Shown: piece after piece, positions 4,674 to 35,183 of the stretch
Layout: each line of letters begins with the position of its first letter
Numbering within the stretch: the stretch's first letter is position 1
NCBI GenBank assembly: GCA_003278445.1
Contig: QCFD01000006.1
Location: 1 to 41,343 of the forward strand
Direction: 5' to 3'
From: Prochlorococcus sp. AG-363-B05
GTDB taxonomy: Bacteria > Cyanobacteriota > Cyanobacteriia > PCC-6307 > Cyanobiaceae
DNA length: 41,343 bases
Notes under the pieces: model-generated
Databases searched by the model: none
Told to the model about the DNA's origin: nothing
The model's input: only the letters and a program-made list of their open reading frames with translations
Program-made: the position numbers and the translations under genes

Positions 4674-4714
4674 AAAAAAAAAGAGTCTCGTCTTTCGACG
4701 AGACTCTTTTTTTT
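4674..4714. terminator. Bidirectional terminator between the small gene and pcb copy 4
   Basis: AAGAGTCTCGTC pairs perfectly with GACGAGACTCTT around a four-base loop, with A-runs before and T-runs after. It serves the plus-strand gene ending at 4635 and the minus-strand pcb ending at 4730. Confidence 0.9.
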
Positions 4715-11703: not shown

Positions 11704-12795
11704 CTATACGTTGAATAGAAACTCCATAACATCTCCCTCATTCACCACATAGTCTTTACCTTCACTTCTTAGCCAACCTTTGTTTCGAGCCTCAGATAAA
11801 GATCCAGCTTCTAGTAATTTTTGATATGAAATTGTTTGAGCGCGAATAAAACCCTTTTCAAAATCTGTATGAATTACCCCAGCGGCCTGAGGAGCTGTCA
11901 TTCCATCAGAAATAGTCCAAGCTTTTGTTTCTTTTTCTCCAGTAGTGAAATATGTACTTAAACCCAGCAATCGATATGTAGCTTTGATAAGACTAATCAA
12001 ACCTCCTTCTTCAACTCCTAATCCATTTAAATAATCATCTCTTTCCTCCTCACCCAATTCAATTAATTCTGCTTCAACTTGTGCTGAAATTTTCACACAT
12101 TCAGAACCTTCTTTAGTTGCCAGATTATTTACTTCTTGTGAAAAGTTATTACCCTTTGAAAGTTCATCTTCACCTAGATTAGTTGCATAAATAATAGGTT
12201 TTTGAGTTAATAATCCTAATGGTTTAATTAATTTTCTTTCTTCCACACTTAATAAAACATTCCTAACTGGATTTTCATTCTCCAAAGCTAAACTTAACTT
12301 TTCTAAAATTTCATCCTCTGACTTTGCTTCTTTATTAGTAGTTAATTGTTTCTTTAATCTTGTTCTTCGCTTTTCTATTTGATTCAAATCAGACAAAGCT
12401 AATTCTAGATTTATTATTTCAATATCTCTTGAAGGGTCTACTGATCCTGATACATGAACAACATCATCATCCTGAAAGCATCTAATAACATGAACTATTG
12501 CATCTACCTCTCTTATATTTGCTAAGAATTTGTTTCCAAGCCCTTCTCCTTTACTTGCTCCCTTAACAAGACCAGCAATGTCAACAAACTCAATTCTAGT
12601 AGGAATTATTTGTTTGCTTTTACTAAGTTCACCAAGCAGATCTAAACGCTGGTCAGGCACTGAAACAGAGCCTACATTCGGTTCAATCGTACAAAAAGGG
12701 AAATTTGCTGCTTGAGCTTGCGCATTGGCGACAAGAGCATTGAACAAAGTCGACTTGCCAACATTAGGGAGTCCAACAATTCCGGCCTTAAGCAT
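11704..12795 (-). CDS. ychF: Redox-regulated P-loop ATPase/GTPase YchF
   Basis: This is a 363-residue member of the Obg-related YchF family, a ribosome-associated nucleotidase that prefers ATP. It has the P-loop GLPNVGKSTLFNAL at residues 8-21, switch segment DIAGLVKGASKGEGLGNKFL, NLGEDE in place of the usual NKxD, and the C-terminal TGS-like domain ending GDVMEFLFNV. Length matches the family (about 363). It is divergent from the HlyD-type gene. The role in translation or stress response is known from other bacteria, not from this sequence. Confidence 0.96.
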   Translation of the reverse strand: MLKAGIVGLPNVGKSTLFNALVANAQAQAANFPFCTIEPNVGSVSVPDQRLDLLGELSKSKQIIPTRIEFVDIAGLVKGASKGEGLGNKFLANIREVDAIVHVIRCFQDDDVVHVSGSVDPSRDIEIINLELALSDLNQIEKRRTRLKKQLTTNKEAKSEDEILEKLSLALENENPVRNVLLSVEERKLIKPLGLLTQKPIIYATNLGEDELSKGNNFSQEVNNLATKEGSECVKISAQVEAELIELGEEERDDYLNGLGVEEGGLISLIKATYRLLGLSTYFTTGEKETKAWTISDGMTAPQAAGVIHTDFEKGFIRAQTISYQKLLEAGSLSEARNKGWLRSEGKDYVVNEGDVMEFLFNV

Positions 12796-12962: not shown

Positions 12963-14036
12963 ATGATTTGGAACAATTTAAAAAAGAAAAAAGTTATAAG
13001 CCTCATCGCACTTTCGCTTTTAACTTTTGGTGGAATTAGTTTTAAACTTTCACAAGGAAACAGATCTAATAAAGACATAACTGAATTTACTATTGCAGCT
13101 GAGAGCGGAAGTTTGCCAGGCTTGATAACAGCAAGTGGTGAATTAAAAGCAAATAAAAGTGTAAATGTAAGTCCTAAAAGGCAGGGAATACTGAATGAGA
13201 TTTTCGTAGAAGAAGGAGACCAGGTAAAGAAAGGAGATCTCATTGCAAAAATGGATTTTGGAGACTTGAAATACAGAATTGACGAGCTTAAAGCTAATTA
13301 CGAAACTCAAAAAGCCAGCTATCTGAGAAGGCAAATGCTTTTTAATGAAGGGGCTATCAGTGCCGAAGAATATGAAGAATATAAAAATAAATTTTCAAGA
13401 AGTGAGGCTAAATTCAAACAAATAGAAACCGAAGAAAATGAGACAAATATTAGAGCACCATTTAAAGGAGTCATAACAAGTAGATACGCGGTTCCTGGAG
13501 CATTTGTAACTCCTACAACATCTGCCTCCTCCTCTCGAGAAGGAGGCGCGACAAGCTCATCAATAGTTGAACTCTCTCAAGGTCTTGAAATAGTTGCGAA
13601 AGTTCCCGAAAGTGATATTGGACGAATAAAAACTAATCAAGATGCAACTATTAGAGTGGATGCTTTCCCTGATAGACGCTTCAAAGCTGTTGTCTCCAAA
13701 ATCTCTCCAAGTGCAATAAAAAGCAACAATGTTACTTCATTTGAAGTAACATTGTTGCTAAACAAAAAGCCTAAAGGTTTAAGGCTAGGCATGACTTCTG
13801 ATATCAACTTTGAAACAGGAGCAACCAAAATAAGTACGCTTATTCCTACAGTTGCAATTGTCACGGAAGAGGGGAAAGCCGGGGTTCTAGTAGTAGGAAA
13901 TAACAATCAACCAAAATTTAAAAAAGTTGAACTAGGTACAAGCAGTGGTAGCAAGACTGCAATAATATCAGGATTACAACCAGGCGAGAGGGTTTTTATT
14001 GATCTTCCTCCTTGGGCTAAAAAAAGAAAAAGTTAA
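12963..14036 (+). CDS. HlyD/MacA-type periplasmic adaptor protein
   Basis: This 357-residue membrane-fusion protein has an N-terminal signal anchor (about residues 13-28, VISLIALSLLTFGGISF), then a biotinyl/lipoyl-like hairpin domain (ASGELKANKSVNVSPK and GILNEIFVEEGDQVKKGDLI), a coiled-coil hairpin (about 90-140, rich in Glu, Lys and Arg), and a beta-barrel domain. Such proteins link an inner-membrane exporter (ABC or RND) to an outer-membrane channel. No exporter gene is adjacent: polA follows on the same strand with a 26-nt gap. A low-complexity loop (TTSASSSREGGATSSS) interrupts the second lipoyl half. The gene contains a perfect 18-bp inverted repeat at 13722-13759. Confidence 0.9.
   Translation: MIWNNLKKKKVISLIALSLLTFGGISFKLSQGNRSNKDITEFTIAAESGSLPGLITASGELKANKSVNVSPKRQGILNEIFVEEGDQVKKGDLIAKMDFGDLKYRIDELKANYETQKASYLRRQMLFNEGAISAEEYEEYKNKFSRSEAKFKQIETEENETNIRAPFKGVITSRYAVPGAFVTPTTSASSSREGGATSSSIVELSQGLEIVAKVPESDIGRIKTNQDATIRVDAFPDRRFKAVVSKISPSAIKSNNVTSFEVTLLLNKKPKGLRLGMTSDINFETGATKISTLIPTVAIVTEEGKAGVLVVGNNNQPKFKKVELGTSSGSKTAIISGLQPGERVFIDLPPWAKKRKS
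13722..13759. repeat. Perfect 18-bp inverted repeat inside the HlyD-type gene
   Basis: AGCAACAATGTTACTTCA is followed by TT and then by its exact reverse complement. It encodes SNNVTSFEVTLLL of the adaptor protein, so the coding frame reads through a near-perfect palindrome. There is no T-run behind it, so it is not a simple terminator. It may form a strong mRNA hairpin. Confidence 0.9.
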
Positions 14037-14062: not shown

Positions 14063-17023
14063 ATGAAAGAAATAAAAAAACCAACTTTATTATTGATCGA
14101 TGGACATTCTTTAGCTTTTAGAAGTTTCTATGCTTTTAGCAAAGGTGGAGAAGGTGGGCTTTCGACAAAAGACGGTTTCCCTACAAGTGTTACTTACGGT
14201 TTTTTAAAAAGTCTTCTAGATAATTGCAAGTCAATAGAGCCAAAAGGTATCACAATTGCTTTTGATACTCCCGAACCAACATTTCGTCACAAGGAAGATC
14301 CAAACTACAAAGCGAATAGAGATGTAGCACCAGATATATTTTTTCAGGATTTAGATCAACTTGAGAAGATTCTTAGAGAAAGCCTTAATCTTTCCATCTG
14401 CAAAGCCCCAGGATATGAAGCTGATGATGTATTAGGAACCCTCGCGAATGAAGCCGCTGAAGAAGGTTGGAGCGTGAGAATACTTTCTGGTGATAGAGAC
14501 CTATTCCAATTAGTTGATGACGAAAGAGATATAGCAGTCCTTTACATGGGTGGAGGTCCTTATGCGAAAAGCGGAAGTCCTAAAATTATTGATGAGAATG
14601 GAGTAAAGGAAAAACTCGGAGTAAATCCAAACAAAGTTATTGATCTGAAAGCCTTAACTGGAGACAGCTCAGATAACATTCCAGGAGTCAAAGGAGTTGG
14701 GCCTAAAACAGCAATAAATCTTTTAAAAGAAAACAACGATCTTGATGGAGTTTATAAATCACTCCAAGAGCTTGAGCAAGAAGGAGAAAAAGCCAAACGA
14801 GGATCAATAAAAGGGGCTGTAAGACTAAAACTAAAAGCTGATAAAGATAACGCCTATCTCTCAAGAAAACTTGCGGAAATATTAATTAGTATCCCTATAA
14901 ATCCAAAAACAAACCATAACTTAGAAGGTATTAATGAATCTAAACTAGCTGAAGATCTAGAGAAGCTTGAACTACATAGTTTATTAAGACAAGTTTCAAC
15001 TTTTAAATCTCTATTTTCGAAAGAAGGATTATCTCAAAAAGTGACTAGTCCTTTATCAATAGAAAATAATATAGTGACTAATAAGATTGAGAACAGTGAA
15101 ATAAGTACTCTTAATCAAGATAATATTTTACCTCAGATAGAGCCCAAGATAATAAATGATATAGAAGAACTTAATATTTTCATTGAAAGACTAATGAAAT
15201 ATAAAGATGAGAAAGAACCAATAGCTATTGATACCGAAACAACGAATTTAAATCCCTTTAAAGCTGAACTTGTTGGTTTAGGATTTTGTTTTGGAAAAGA
15301 ATTAAATGATATAGTTTATATTCCTATTGGACATAGAAAAAAAGAAGAAGATTTTTTAGAAAATAATAATATTAATCAATTAAAAATTGAAGAGGTTATC
15401 TATGTACTTCAAAATTGGTTTTCCAGCAAAGAACACCCTAAAACCCTTCAGAATGCAAAATACGATAGACTAATTTTATTAAGACATGGAGTAGTTTTAA
15501 GTGGTGTTATAATAGATACTTTGCTAGCAGATTACGTATTAGATGCAACACTAAAACATAGTTTAGATGAAATCTCATTTAGAGAATTTGGATTCAAGCC
15601 CAAAAGTTTTTCTGATATTGTCAAAAAGGGAGAAGACTTCTCTTATGTGGACATAAAAACTGCAAGTATGTACTGCGGTATGGACGTTTATTTAACAAGA
15701 AAAATAGCAATTATTTATATTAAAAGATTTAAAGATAAGAGTGAAAAATTAATGAATCTACTTACATTAATAGAACAACCGCTTGAGGAAGTACTAGCAG
15801 AAATTGAATCAACCGGAATCATTATTGATACACCTTACTTAAAAGATTTATCATTAGAGTTAACAAAAAAATTAAATACTATTGAGGAAGAAGTTTATAA
15901 AATCTCAGGGGGAGAATTCAACCTTTCTTCACCAAAACAATTAGGTGAATTACTTTTTGAGAATCTAAACTTAAATAGAAAAAAATCTAGAAAAACAAAA
16001 ACAGGCTGGAGTACAGATGCAGGCGTTTTAGAAAGACTCGAATCAGATCATCCAATAATAAAAATGATCATTGATCACCGCACTATAAGTAAATTACTTA
16101 ACACTTATGTAGATGCCTTACCTCAACTTATTGAAAAAGAAACTGGAAGAGTACATACTGATTTCAATCAAGCCGTTACAGCTACGGGGAGATTAAGTAG
16201 CAGTAATCCCAATCTCCAAAATATCCCTATCAGAACTGAATTTAGTAGGAGAATAAGAAAAGCTTTTCTTCCCCAAAAAGGTTGGAAACTTCTAAGTGCA
16301 GATTATTCACAAATTGAACTACGTATACTCACTCATCTTTCAGGTGAAGCAGTACTAAAAAATGCTTACTTAAAAAACGAAGATGTCCACTCTTTAACAG
16401 CAAAAATATTATTTGAAAAAGATGATATTGACGTCGATGAAAGAAGAATAGGAAAAACAATTAATTTCGGAGTTATTTATGGTATGGGAGCTCAAAGGTT
16501 TGCAAGATCAACTGATGTTTCATTAATAGAAGCAAAATATTTTTTAAGTAAATTCAAAGAACGTTATCCAGCAGTTTTTAAATTTTTAGAACATCAAGAA
16601 AGACTTGCCTTAAGCCAAGGATTTGTTGAGACATTGCTTGGGAGAAGACGATATTTCCATTTCAATAAAAATGGGCTTGGAAGACTTCTTGGAACTCCAC
16701 CAAATGAAATTGATTTAAATACCGCTAGAAGAGCAGGTATGGAAGCACAACAATTAAGGGCCGCGGCAAACGCGCCTATTCAAGGCTCAAGTGCAGACAT
16801 AATAAAGCTTGCAATGATTCAATTGCATTCCGCTTTAAGCAAGACTGGACTAGCAGCAAAAATTCTACTTCAAGTACATGATGAACTCGTGCTAGAAGTT
16901 GATCCCAAAGATCTGGAGGAAACAAAACTACTTGTCAAAAACACTATGGAAAATGCTGTAAAACTTAGCATCCCTCTTATAGTTGAAACTGGCGTTGGAG
17001 TAAATTGGATGGAGGCAAAATAG
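14063..17023 (+). CDS. polA: DNA polymerase I
   Basis: This is a 986-residue, three-domain DNA polymerase I used in Okazaki fragment processing and repair. The 5'-3' exonuclease domain (about 1-310) contains LLIDGHSLAFRSFYAF, GYEADDVLGTLA and GDSSDNIPGVKGVGPKTA. A 3'-5' exonuclease domain follows, with IAIDTETTNLNP near 386-397 and its intact Asp/Glu pair, and NAKYDRLILLRHG. The polymerase domain has motif A LSADYSQIELR (about 743-753), motif B RRIGKTINFGVIYG and motif C VHDELVLEV (about 938-946). The proofreading residues are present, unlike in Taq-type enzymes. A charged, Asn-rich linker lies between the first two domains. Confidence 0.98.
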   Translation: MKEIKKPTLLLIDGHSLAFRSFYAFSKGGEGGLSTKDGFPTSVTYGFLKSLLDNCKSIEPKGITIAFDTPEPTFRHKEDPNYKANRDVAPDIFFQDLDQLEKILRESLNLSICKAPGYEADDVLGTLANEAAEEGWSVRILSGDRDLFQLVDDERDIAVLYMGGGPYAKSGSPKIIDENGVKEKLGVNPNKVIDLKALTGDSSDNIPGVKGVGPKTAINLLKENNDLDGVYKSLQELEQEGEKAKRGSIKGAVRLKLKADKDNAYLSRKLAEILISIPINPKTNHNLEGINESKLAEDLEKLELHSLLRQVSTFKSLFSKEGLSQKVTSPLSIENNIVTNKIENSEISTLNQDNILPQIEPKIINDIEELNIFIERLMKYKDEKEPIAIDTETTNLNPFKAELVGLGFCFGKELNDIVYIPIGHRKKEEDFLENNNINQLKIEEVIYVLQNWFSSKEHPKTLQNAKYDRLILLRHGVVLSGVIIDTLLADYVLDATLKHSLDEISFREFGFKPKSFSDIVKKGEDFSYVDIKTASMYCGMDVYLTRKIAIIYIKRFKDKSEKLMNLLTLIEQPLEEVLAEIESTGIIIDTPYLKDLSLELTKKLNTIEEEVYKISGGEFNLSSPKQLGELLFENLNLNRKKSRKTKTGWSTDAGVLERLESDHPIIKMIIDHRTISKLLNTYVDALPQLIEKETGRVHTDFNQAVTATGRLSSSNPNLQNIPIRTEFSRRIRKAFLPQKGWKLLSADYSQIELRILTHLSGEAVLKNAYLKNEDVHSLTAKILFEKDDIDVDERRIGKTINFGVIYGMGAQRFARSTDVSLIEAKYFLSKFKERYPAVFKFLEHQERLALSQGFVETLLGRRRYFHFNKNGLGRLLGTPPNEIDLNTARRAGMEAQQLRAAANAPIQGSSADIIKLAMIQLHSALSKTGLAAKILLQVHDELVLEVDPKDLEETKLLVKNTMENAVKLSIPLIVETGVGVNWMEAK

Positions 17024-32699: not shown

Positions 32700-33776
32700 A
32701 TGACGATCGCTGTTGGAAGCGCAACAGAACGAGGTTGGTTTGACGCCCTCGATGACTGGTTAAAGCGCGACCGATTCGTATTTGTTGGTTGGTCTGGACT
32801 ACTTCTCTTCCCTACTGCTTTCCTAGCTATAGGTGGATGGTTCACAGGTACAACCTTCGTTTCTTCCTGGTACACCCATGGTGTAGCCAGCTCTTATCTT
32901 GAGGGATGTAATTTCCTCACTGCTGCTGTTAGTACTCCTGGCGATGCCATGGGTCATAGCCTTCTTTTCCTTTGGGGACCTGAAGCGCAGGGCGATTTAA
33001 CACGTTGGTTCCAACTTGGTGGCCTATGGAATTTCGTTGCTCTACATGGCGCATTTAGCCTTATCGGCTTCATGCTTCGTCAGTTCGAAATTGCAAGACT
33101 AGTTGGTATCCGTCCTTATAACGCACTTGCTTTCTCAGCAGTTATTGCAGTATTTACTGCTTGCTTCCTTATTTATCCTCTAGGTCAGCACAGTTGGTTC
33201 TTCGCTCCTTCTTTTGGAGTTGCAGCAATATTCCGTTTCATTCTCTTTATTCAAGGATTCCACAACATTACGCTTAATCCATTCCACATGATGGGTGTAG
33301 CAGGGATTCTTGGTGGTGCTCTACTTTGTGCTATTCACGGTGCAACAGTTCAGAACACTCTTTACGAAGATTCAAGTGTTTACTCTGACGGTAAAAATCA
33401 GAGTACAACTTTCAGAGGTTTCGACCCAGTACAAGAAGAAGAGACTTACTCATTTATTACTGCAAACCGCTTCTGGAGTCAGATATTCGGTATTGCATTC
33501 TCAAATAAGCGTTTCCTTCACTTCTTGATGCTTTTCGTACCAGTAACAGGTATGTGGGCTGCATCTATAGGAATTGTCGGTTTGGCTCTAAACCTTCGTG
33601 CTTACGATTTTGTTAGCCAAGAGATCAGAGCTGCCGAAGATCCTGAGTTTGAAACTTTCTACACTAAAAATATCCTTCTTAATGAAGGTATGCGTGCATG
33701 GATGTCTTCTGTAGACCAACCACACGAAAACTTTGTATTCCCTGAGGAGGTACTCCCACGTGGAAACGCCCTTTAA
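32700..33776 (+). CDS. psbD: Photosystem II D2 protein
   Basis: This is a full-length, 358-residue photosystem II reaction-centre D2 protein. It starts [20 protein letters not shown] and shows the five-helix pattern, [18 protein letters not shown] near the special-pair His, [20 protein letters not shown], and the C-terminal [10 protein letters not shown]. It partners D1, and unlike psbA in this window it is intact. Its last 17 nt overlap psbC, so the two are translated from one mRNA. Confidence 0.98.
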
Positions 33777-35142
33777 TAGTTTACTCAAAGCTCCAAATCA
33801 AAGTCTTGAAGAGACTGGTTATGCCTGGTATGTAGGAAATGCAAGGCTAATCAATCTTTCTGGAAGACTTTTGGGAGCTCACATTGCTCATGCAGGACTA
33901 ATGGTGTTCTGGGCAGGAGCAATGATGCTTTTTGAAGTCAGTCATTTCACATTGGACAAGCCAATGTGGGAGCAAGGCTTGATTTGTATGCCTCACGTAG
34001 CCATGTTTGGTTATGGAATTGGTCCAGGAGGAGAAGTCATTGATGTATGGCCTTTCTTCATTGCTGGTGTGATTCACCTTGTTGCATCTGGAATTCTTGG
34101 TTTTGGAGGGGTTTTCCACTCTTTAGCTGGTCCAGAGAAACTTGAAGAAGCTTTCCCATTTTTCTCTACTGATTGGAGAGATAAAAATCAAATGACCAAC
34201 ATTCTTGGTTTCCATTTGGTTGTATTGGGTGTTGGATCATTACTTTTTTCAATTAACTGGATGTACCTAGGTGGTGCATACGACACATGGGCTCCTGGTG
34301 GAGGAGAAGTTCGTCTGATCAACCCAACACTTGATCCAAGAATTATTTTTGGATATCTACTATCAACACCCTGGGGTGGTGGTGGCTGGATGGTTGGAGT
34401 TAACTCCATGGAAGATATTGTCGGAGGACATGTTTACCTGGGTGTGATTGAAATAATTGGTGGTCTTTTCCATATCTTCACTCAGCCTTATGGATGGGCA
34501 AGAAGAGCCTTCATCTGGAATGGTGAAGGACTTCTAAGTTATGCATTAGGTGGAATTTGTGTTGCAAGTTTTGTTGCTTCATGTTTCATCTGGTTCAACA
34601 ATACTGCTTACCCATCTGAGTTCTACGGTCCTACAAACGCTGAAGCCTCTCAGGCCCAGAGTTTTACATTCCTAGTTCGTGACCAACGAATTGGTGCAAA
34701 TGTAGGTTCAACTATGGGACCAACTGGTTTAGGTAAATACCTAATGCGTTCTCCTACTGGTGAAATTATCTTTGGTGGAGAAACAATGCGTTTTTGGGAT
34801 TTCCGAGGACCATGGCTTGAGCCACTTAGAGGACCAAATGGTCTAAGTCTTGAGAAGATTCAAAATGATATTCAGCCTTGGCAAGTTCGCCGTGCTGCTG
34901 AGTACATGACTCATGCTCCTAACGCTTCTATTAACTCTGTTGGTGGAATCATTACTGAGCCTAATGCTGTTAACTTTGTTAACTTGCGTCAATGGCTTGC
35001 TGGAGCTCAGTTCTTCCTTGGTTGGTTTACATTTGTAGGTCATCTTTGGCATGCTGGTCGTGCGAGAGCAGCTGCAGCTGGATTTGAAAAAGGTATCAGT
35101 CGTTCACAAGAGCCTGCTCTTTCAATGCCTGATCTAGATTAG
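33760..35142 (+). CDS. psbC: Photosystem II CP43 core antenna protein
   Basis: This is a 460-residue CP43 with six membrane helices that binds chlorophyll in the photosystem II core. It shows the large lumenal loop between the last two helices with [14 protein letters not shown], including the Arg that contacts the Mn cluster. The start is GTG at 33760 ([14 protein letters not shown]), inside the end of psbD, preceded by GAGGAGG at a normal spacing; the frame also opens 27 nt further up, but this start is the conserved one. Pcb proteins elsewhere in the window are shorter relatives lacking this loop. Confidence 0.97.
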
Positions 35143-35147
35143 ATTCT

Positions 35148-35183
35148 AAAAAAAAAGTCCTCTTTATTGAGGACTTTTTTTTT
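35148..35183 (+). terminator. Terminator of psbD-psbC
   Basis: AAAAAAGTCCTC pairs perfectly with GAGGACTTTTTT around a six-base loop, with a long T-run. It begins 6 nt after the psbC stop codon. Confidence 0.92.

Follow-up and report, generated by a model that had tools for sequence, protein, structure and literature searches.

What keeps a long, perfect palindrome inside a protein-coding gene? We met this question in a stretch of 41,343 nucleotides from Prochlorococcus sp. AG-363-B05 (contig QCFD01000006.1; hereafter the window), which belongs to an assembly 67% complete and 1.09 Mb in size. The original prediction had placed there a perfect 18-bp inverted repeat within a gene for an HlyD-type protein, and both the repeat and the gene are confirmed. 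The 5′ arm (13722-13739, plus strand; AGCAACAATGTTACTTCA) is 18 bp long and covers codons 254-259 (S N N V T S). The 3′ arm (13742-13759, plus strand), also of 18 bp, is its exact reverse complement and runs from the third base of codon 260 to the second base of codon 266 (F E V T L L L). The arms are 100% complementary, and the 2 nt between them, TT (13740-13741, plus strand), constitute bases 1 and 2 of the Phe-260 codon. The palindrome as a whole encodes the peptide SNNVTSFEVTLLL.

The host gene (12963-14036, plus strand, 357 aa), identified from its ORF and from Pfam and TIGR01730, specifies an RND_mfp/HlyD-type periplasmic adaptor (membrane-fusion protein). It matches HlyD_D23 and HlyD_3 in Pfam and exceeds the curated cut-off of the RND_mfp model TIGR01730. 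Its neighbours give context only: a YchF-type GTPase gene upstream (11704-12795, minus strand) and a polA-type gene (DNA polymerase family A; 14063-17023, plus strand) next downstream. Beyond the latter lies a gene with tRNA-synt_1e and DALR_2 domains, which we take to be that of cysteinyl-tRNA synthetase. Prochlorococcus accounts for 17 of the 18 named loci found with the adaptor protein.

We listed the inverted repeats of the window with arms of at least 14 nt and copies at most 60 apart. Among the six 100%-complementary pairs listed, 13722-13759 is the sole coding one, taking as coding the listed ORFs of at least 90 aa. Perfect inverted repeats of 15-20 bp at 104-143, 4675-4714 and 35148-35183, outside listed ORFs, carry A-runs at their start and T-runs at their end, and are possibly two-way terminators. 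The palindrome of the adaptor gene is followed by AAACAAAAAGCC; as no T-run comes after the stem, we rejected an intrinsic terminator. Its RNA is predicted to fold at -26.9 kcal/mol (z -6.8), and none of 200 shuffles is equally stable. Searching the whole window with Rfam at gathering scores gave two matches, none of them at the palindrome. A match to IsrR, the antisense RNA of isiA (152 bits; 34174-34357, minus strand), runs antisense to a photosystem II protein gene (33733-35142). Since isiA and psbC are paralogues, this match may reflect only their kinship.

How surprising the palindrome is depends on its codon register. Across the two arms, third codon positions face each other, and first positions face second positions. 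Because of this arrangement almost all of the 12 non-silent pairs are dictated by the peptide NNVTSFEVTLLL, through N-L, V-T and S-E pairings at its first and second codon positions. This leaves six silent pairs free, and the perfection of the stem depends on them. When we drew codons for the unchanged peptide by the usage of the adaptor gene in the 26 same-genus orthologues, all 18 pairs formed in 3 of 40,000 draws (P = 7.5e-5). The palindrome is thus far beyond codon chance, though the peptide alone dictates most of the non-silent pairs. A palindrome of this length had been called unexpected in a coding sequence, and at fixed peptide and codon usage it is.

We then ask whether the stem is retained. 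An orthologue is present in 26 of 41 same-genus genomes; the remaining 15, including G008 (93% complete) and G031 (96%), are without a full-length one. Named records (L033-L049), largely repeats of loci from these genomes, were excluded from the orthologue counts. All 26 orthologue genomes contain the core pattern at no more than three mismatches, at one place per genome and always in the adaptor gene. A reading of the pattern as a repeated motif was rejected, as it occurs once per genome, in 26 of the 41 genomes. One orthologue (L028, G017:C32:4897-5965) is broken into two overlapping frames, by a frameshift or an assembly error; its hairpin is perfect despite the split.

The 26 orthologues comprise 14 distinct hairpin sequences, all with the peptide core NNVTSFEVTL and the spacer TT. 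All six silent pairs are of Watson-Crick type in 18 of them; the others keep five silent pairs (three orthologues), four (one), three (two) or two (two). As a neutral null we resampled columns of identical amino acid from other parts of the adaptor gene. The 12 silent sites are all at consensus in 10 of 26 orthologues, where the resampled columns predict 2.3 (P 0.009), and 8 further orthologues have changed silent bases yet keep all six pairs. A total of 18 was never reached in 20,000 resampling draws, under a null that gives no credit to chance compensation. The stem is therefore retained throughout the genus beyond this neutral expectation. Silent diversity within the hairpin is somewhat low (P 0.046 by codon draws, 0.034 by resampled columns). 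Homogenisation of the arms is nonetheless incomplete, because 8 of the 26 orthologues have 1 to 4 non-Watson-Crick pairs. An alignment of orthologues had been proposed as a means of finding one arm that differs: such one-sided changes are seen, in the orthologues that are not fully paired, but matched changes in both arms are seen as well.

We next counted these paired changes. Pairing is kept in 97.2% of 468 alignment cells (26 same-genus orthologues). Four pairs changed on both sides, a number matched by 14 of 500 shuffles. The cells changed on both sides number 12, against a shuffled mean of 4.1; none of 500 shuffles reaches 12, and slid partners give 0 to 7. The covariation score is 0.094 against 0.057 for shuffled alignments, and again none of 500 reaches it, while the count of further pair types is ordinary (110 of 500 shuffles). 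Eleven of the 18 pairs are invariant, hence uninformative on covariation.

The changes can also be placed on a tree of the orthologues, built from the flanks and the adaptor gene minus the hairpin, in which several inner nodes are weakly supported. Double changes on the same branch total 6.57, a value reached by 0.5% of 5040 random re-partnerings of the variable sites; compared with distance-matched third-position pairs elsewhere in the gene, which are unmatched in number of changes, they give P = 0.079. Matched doubles hold 0.51 of the changed silent sites, against 0.25 expected (P 0.011), and the bare count of doubly changed cells is ordinary relative to resampled columns (P 0.34). Among single changes, which as cells are not independent events, G-U occurs in 6 cells, C-A in 10 and other mismatches in 3. 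That G-U is not commoner than C-A speaks against selection at the RNA level.

The window itself carries such paired changes: relative to the commonest state, three pairs of its stem are altered, each of them on both sides. One of these is a double transversion, from A-T to T-A.

Outside the genus, we compared 60 homologues, chosen among the matches listed (355 genomes with a match). None of the 60 has all six silent pairs; on average they keep 2.32 of six, against 1.85 expected, with a maximum of 4. Over all 18 positions, 6 to 16 pairs are of Watson-Crick type, the figure of 16 being attained in L056 and L059. Within G+C classes no pair covaries among the 60 (lowest P 0.139). An apparent covariation of pair 256-263 in the pooled homologues (P 0.005) was rejected, not being significant within these classes. 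If the stem arose by correction of an imperfect inverted repeat, a quasi-palindrome is expected as its precursor, and L056 and L059 are such sequences. Among those examined, the perfect stem appears to belong to this genus, with L056 and L059 as a plausible precursor state.

Is the adaptor hairpin singular within its genome? For a complete same-genus genome, G005, we scanned 2.00 of 2.05 Mb for the longest coding repeats. The hairpin of the G005 orthologue is the second-longest perfect inverted repeat (spacer of at most 12) lying wholly within mechanically called ORFs of at least 150 aa. The longest coding palindrome in G005 is a 25-bp perfect inverted repeat with a 2-bp spacer, in a PIN/TRAM-domain gene (L267:9472-9523, i.e. 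G005:C1:949472-949523). A census of G005 covered 1131 ORFs of at least 200 aa and counted 29 palindromes with arms of at least 12 bp, whereas 25 synonymous shuffles averaged 6.1 (sd 3.1, max 14). At arm lengths of 15 or more, with repetitive ORFs included, the shuffles went as high as the 6 observed, a number to which one repetitive ORF contributed. Since repetitive ORFs had inflated the shuffles of this first census, it was repeated without 22 of them: the remaining 1109 ORFs hold 27 palindromes with arms of at least 12 bp, where synonymous shuffles give 3.9 (max 8), and 6 with arms of at least 15, where they give 0.24 (max 2). Taken as a class, coding palindromes are overrepresented in G005.

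Four of the six other palindromes were sought across the genus as controls (those of rarA/mgsA, L141, L133 and L131; L118 and L137 fell outside). For the L141 stem a self-match was obtained only in two genomes, and the L133 and L131 palindromes lie in stretches with few matches. The 15-bp coding hairpin of a rarA/mgsA-type gene (L152:16452-16484, i.e. G005:C1:1596452-1596484; loci L167-L196) is a second case, conserved over much of the genus, with 15 of 15 pairs in 16 of the 29 loci covered in full. Its 3-bp spacer is AAG or the exact inverse, CTT, which turns DSKVES into DSTFES and so exchanges Lys-Val for Thr-Phe. On a tree of 28 of the 30 loci (the partial L195 and the most distant L196 were left out), CTT appears in L175, sister to the AAG-bearing L169, and in a group made up of L172, L174, L178, L185 and L186, sister to the AAG-bearing L179. 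As these are two separate groups with AAG sisters, the spacer state changed at least twice. We infer that each such change was a single inversion; CTG, CAG, AAT, AAC and ACG spacers occur in addition, so a stepwise route from AAG to CTT stays open. The distant L196 combines a CTT spacer with a broken stem.

Spacer inversion is a common footprint of template switching, not an obligatory one. We looked for it at the adaptor locus, where it is absent from all 26 same-genus orthologues. An inverted TT would replace Phe-260, and selection on the protein would thus eliminate the inversion at this hairpin.

Altogether, we consider it on balance probable that a quasi-palindrome imposed by the peptide was perfected, and has since been kept, by template switching during replication, with no function needed. 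The peptide NNVTSFEVTLLL would by chance have come to be encoded as a quasi-palindrome with its silent third positions facing each other. In the ancestor of the genus the leftover silent mismatches would have been corrected, probably by a polymerase switching template within the folded strand, to yield the perfect 18-bp stem. Later silent changes would have been copied from arm to arm by the same quasi-palindrome correction, selection on the protein meanwhile preserving both the TT spacer and the amino acid sequence. On this view the hairpin is most likely a by-product with no function of its own. A template switch copying one arm onto the other had been suggested in the original prediction. 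It remains the best-supported cause, given the matched arm changes, the quasi-palindromic relatives, the excess in G005 and the rarA/mgsA spacer, and we infer it in preference to selection on the stem. As a single event in this strain the suggestion does not stand: the process would instead be repeated and genus-wide, the core pattern being present in all 26 orthologue genomes.

A selected mRNA hairpin, acting in ribosome pausing, in the stability of the mRNA or in tuning polA downstream, would make compensatory evolution of the paired changes, and we regard it as rather unlikely. It would account for the covariation of paired positions, for the fold (z -6.8) and for full pairing in 18 of 26 orthologues; the reduced silent diversity (P 0.046 and 0.034) is also what selection on a stem would give. 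It fits poorly with the 6 G-U against 10 C-A cells, which are not independent events, with the 8 of 26 orthologues that are not fully Watson-Crick, and with the 60 homologues of other genera, none of which has the six pairs or shows covariation within G+C classes. The stem also has no Rfam match at its locus and no T-run past it, and the mRNA control once proposed for this palindrome finds no support in these results. A wider version is unlikely too: that genomes of the genus carry conserved in-gene hairpins selected as structures, whether in mRNA or in single-stranded DNA, that codons as much as a dozen apart are thereby made to co-evolve in pairs, and that small invertible spacers toggle amino acids as in rarA/mgsA. 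Distinctly improbable in our estimate is codon chance followed by common descent, by which the palindrome arose once and was merely inherited. The 11 pairs of 18 that never vary are what a conserved peptide predicts, several inner branches are short, the consensus state is widespread, and doubly changed cells alone are ordinary relative to resampled columns (P 0.34). Yet, judged by the divergence of silent sites elsewhere in the gene, about 2.3 of 26 orthologues would be unchanged, whereas full pairing is seen in 18, including 8 whose bases have changed (the null ignores chance compensation); changes on both sides exceed all 500 shuffles, and the share of matched doubles is 0.51 rather than 0.25 (P 0.011).

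Could homologous recombination have moved linked changes among strains in short tracts, mimicking repeated covariation? The window and L026 both read AGC/AAT/ACA/CTR though apart on the tree; L026 has two of the three doubly changed pairs of the window, and in the 60-bp block of the hairpin no orthologue surpasses it in closeness to the window. In the blocks adjoining the hairpin it is not close, 22 and 20 of the 25 orthologues being closer to the window there. Moreover, L059, a near relative from another genus, likewise has AGC, AAT, ACA and CT at these places, so the state common to the window and L026 may be ancestral. Recombination spreads matched arms but does not create them, and we judge this explanation very improbable. 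A site for a dimeric DNA-binding protein inside the gene would suit the long dyad symmetry, but seems scarcely credible: the matched pair changes keep the symmetry while altering the bases, which means that the sequence is only partly conserved, and the site occurs at a single place per genome, always in the adaptor gene.

We also considered, and rejected, the idea that the palindrome is due to loss of SbcD, a hairpin nuclease. None of the 41 same-genus genomes has a match, yet this explains nothing specific, because genera devoid of the palindrome are without SbcD too. In the family, SbcD is above cut-off in 20 of 151 genomes, and some match is found in 91 of 151. The ExoI C-terminal domain was detected in none of the 41 same-genus genomes, the control search being positive in E. 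coli only, and XseA in 27 of the 41.

The locus is a clean natural example of a bacterial gene whose silent sites, at two places, seem to co-evolve. If template switching is the true cause, covariation alone is no proof of a functional RNA stem, and codon tests that treat silent sites as independent are biased at loci of this kind. The adaptor locus and rarA/mgsA would also be two loci where template-switch events could be measured in a streamlined marine bacterium.

The mechanism itself is known, and this is a further instance of it, found by comparison in a streamlined marine cyanobacterium; among the Prochlorococcus papers listed in a literature search, none concerns coding hairpins, judged by title or abstract opening. 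In quasi-palindrome correction (PMC7202029), an imperfect inverted repeat is made perfect by one arm templating the other, in E. coli lacZ reporters. By comparison with those systems, ours sets natural orthologues side by side across a genus, concerns changes that are mostly silent in the protein, and is known from sequence alone. For template-switch correction of quasi-palindromes, PMC6649704 and PMC10434271 cite van Noort 2003, and the former says that it accounts for an excess of short inverted repeats. PMC6649704 also describes coding palindromes of Nematomorpha mitochondria in which both arms encode conserved residues, as here; being a perfect inverted repeat with conserved residues from both arms, our palindrome is one in that sense, and its register corresponds to their 'phase 3'. 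Those palindromes reach 284 bp and, beyond 65 bp, are never in phase 3 (PMC6649704), whereas ours is bacterial and of 18 bp. Template switching can also yield multi-base compensatory changes of a stem in one mutation event (PMC8794818); the cases there are RNA genes with selected stems, and ours is a protein gene. In coding genes of yeast, template switching homogenises arms and inverts spacers, with parallel events (PMC8604942), much as it would have done with the arms here and perhaps with the rarA/mgsA spacer. The yeast events mostly altered amino acids, whereas here the third-position register makes most changes silent, and it is this silent-to-silent register that makes the instance clear.
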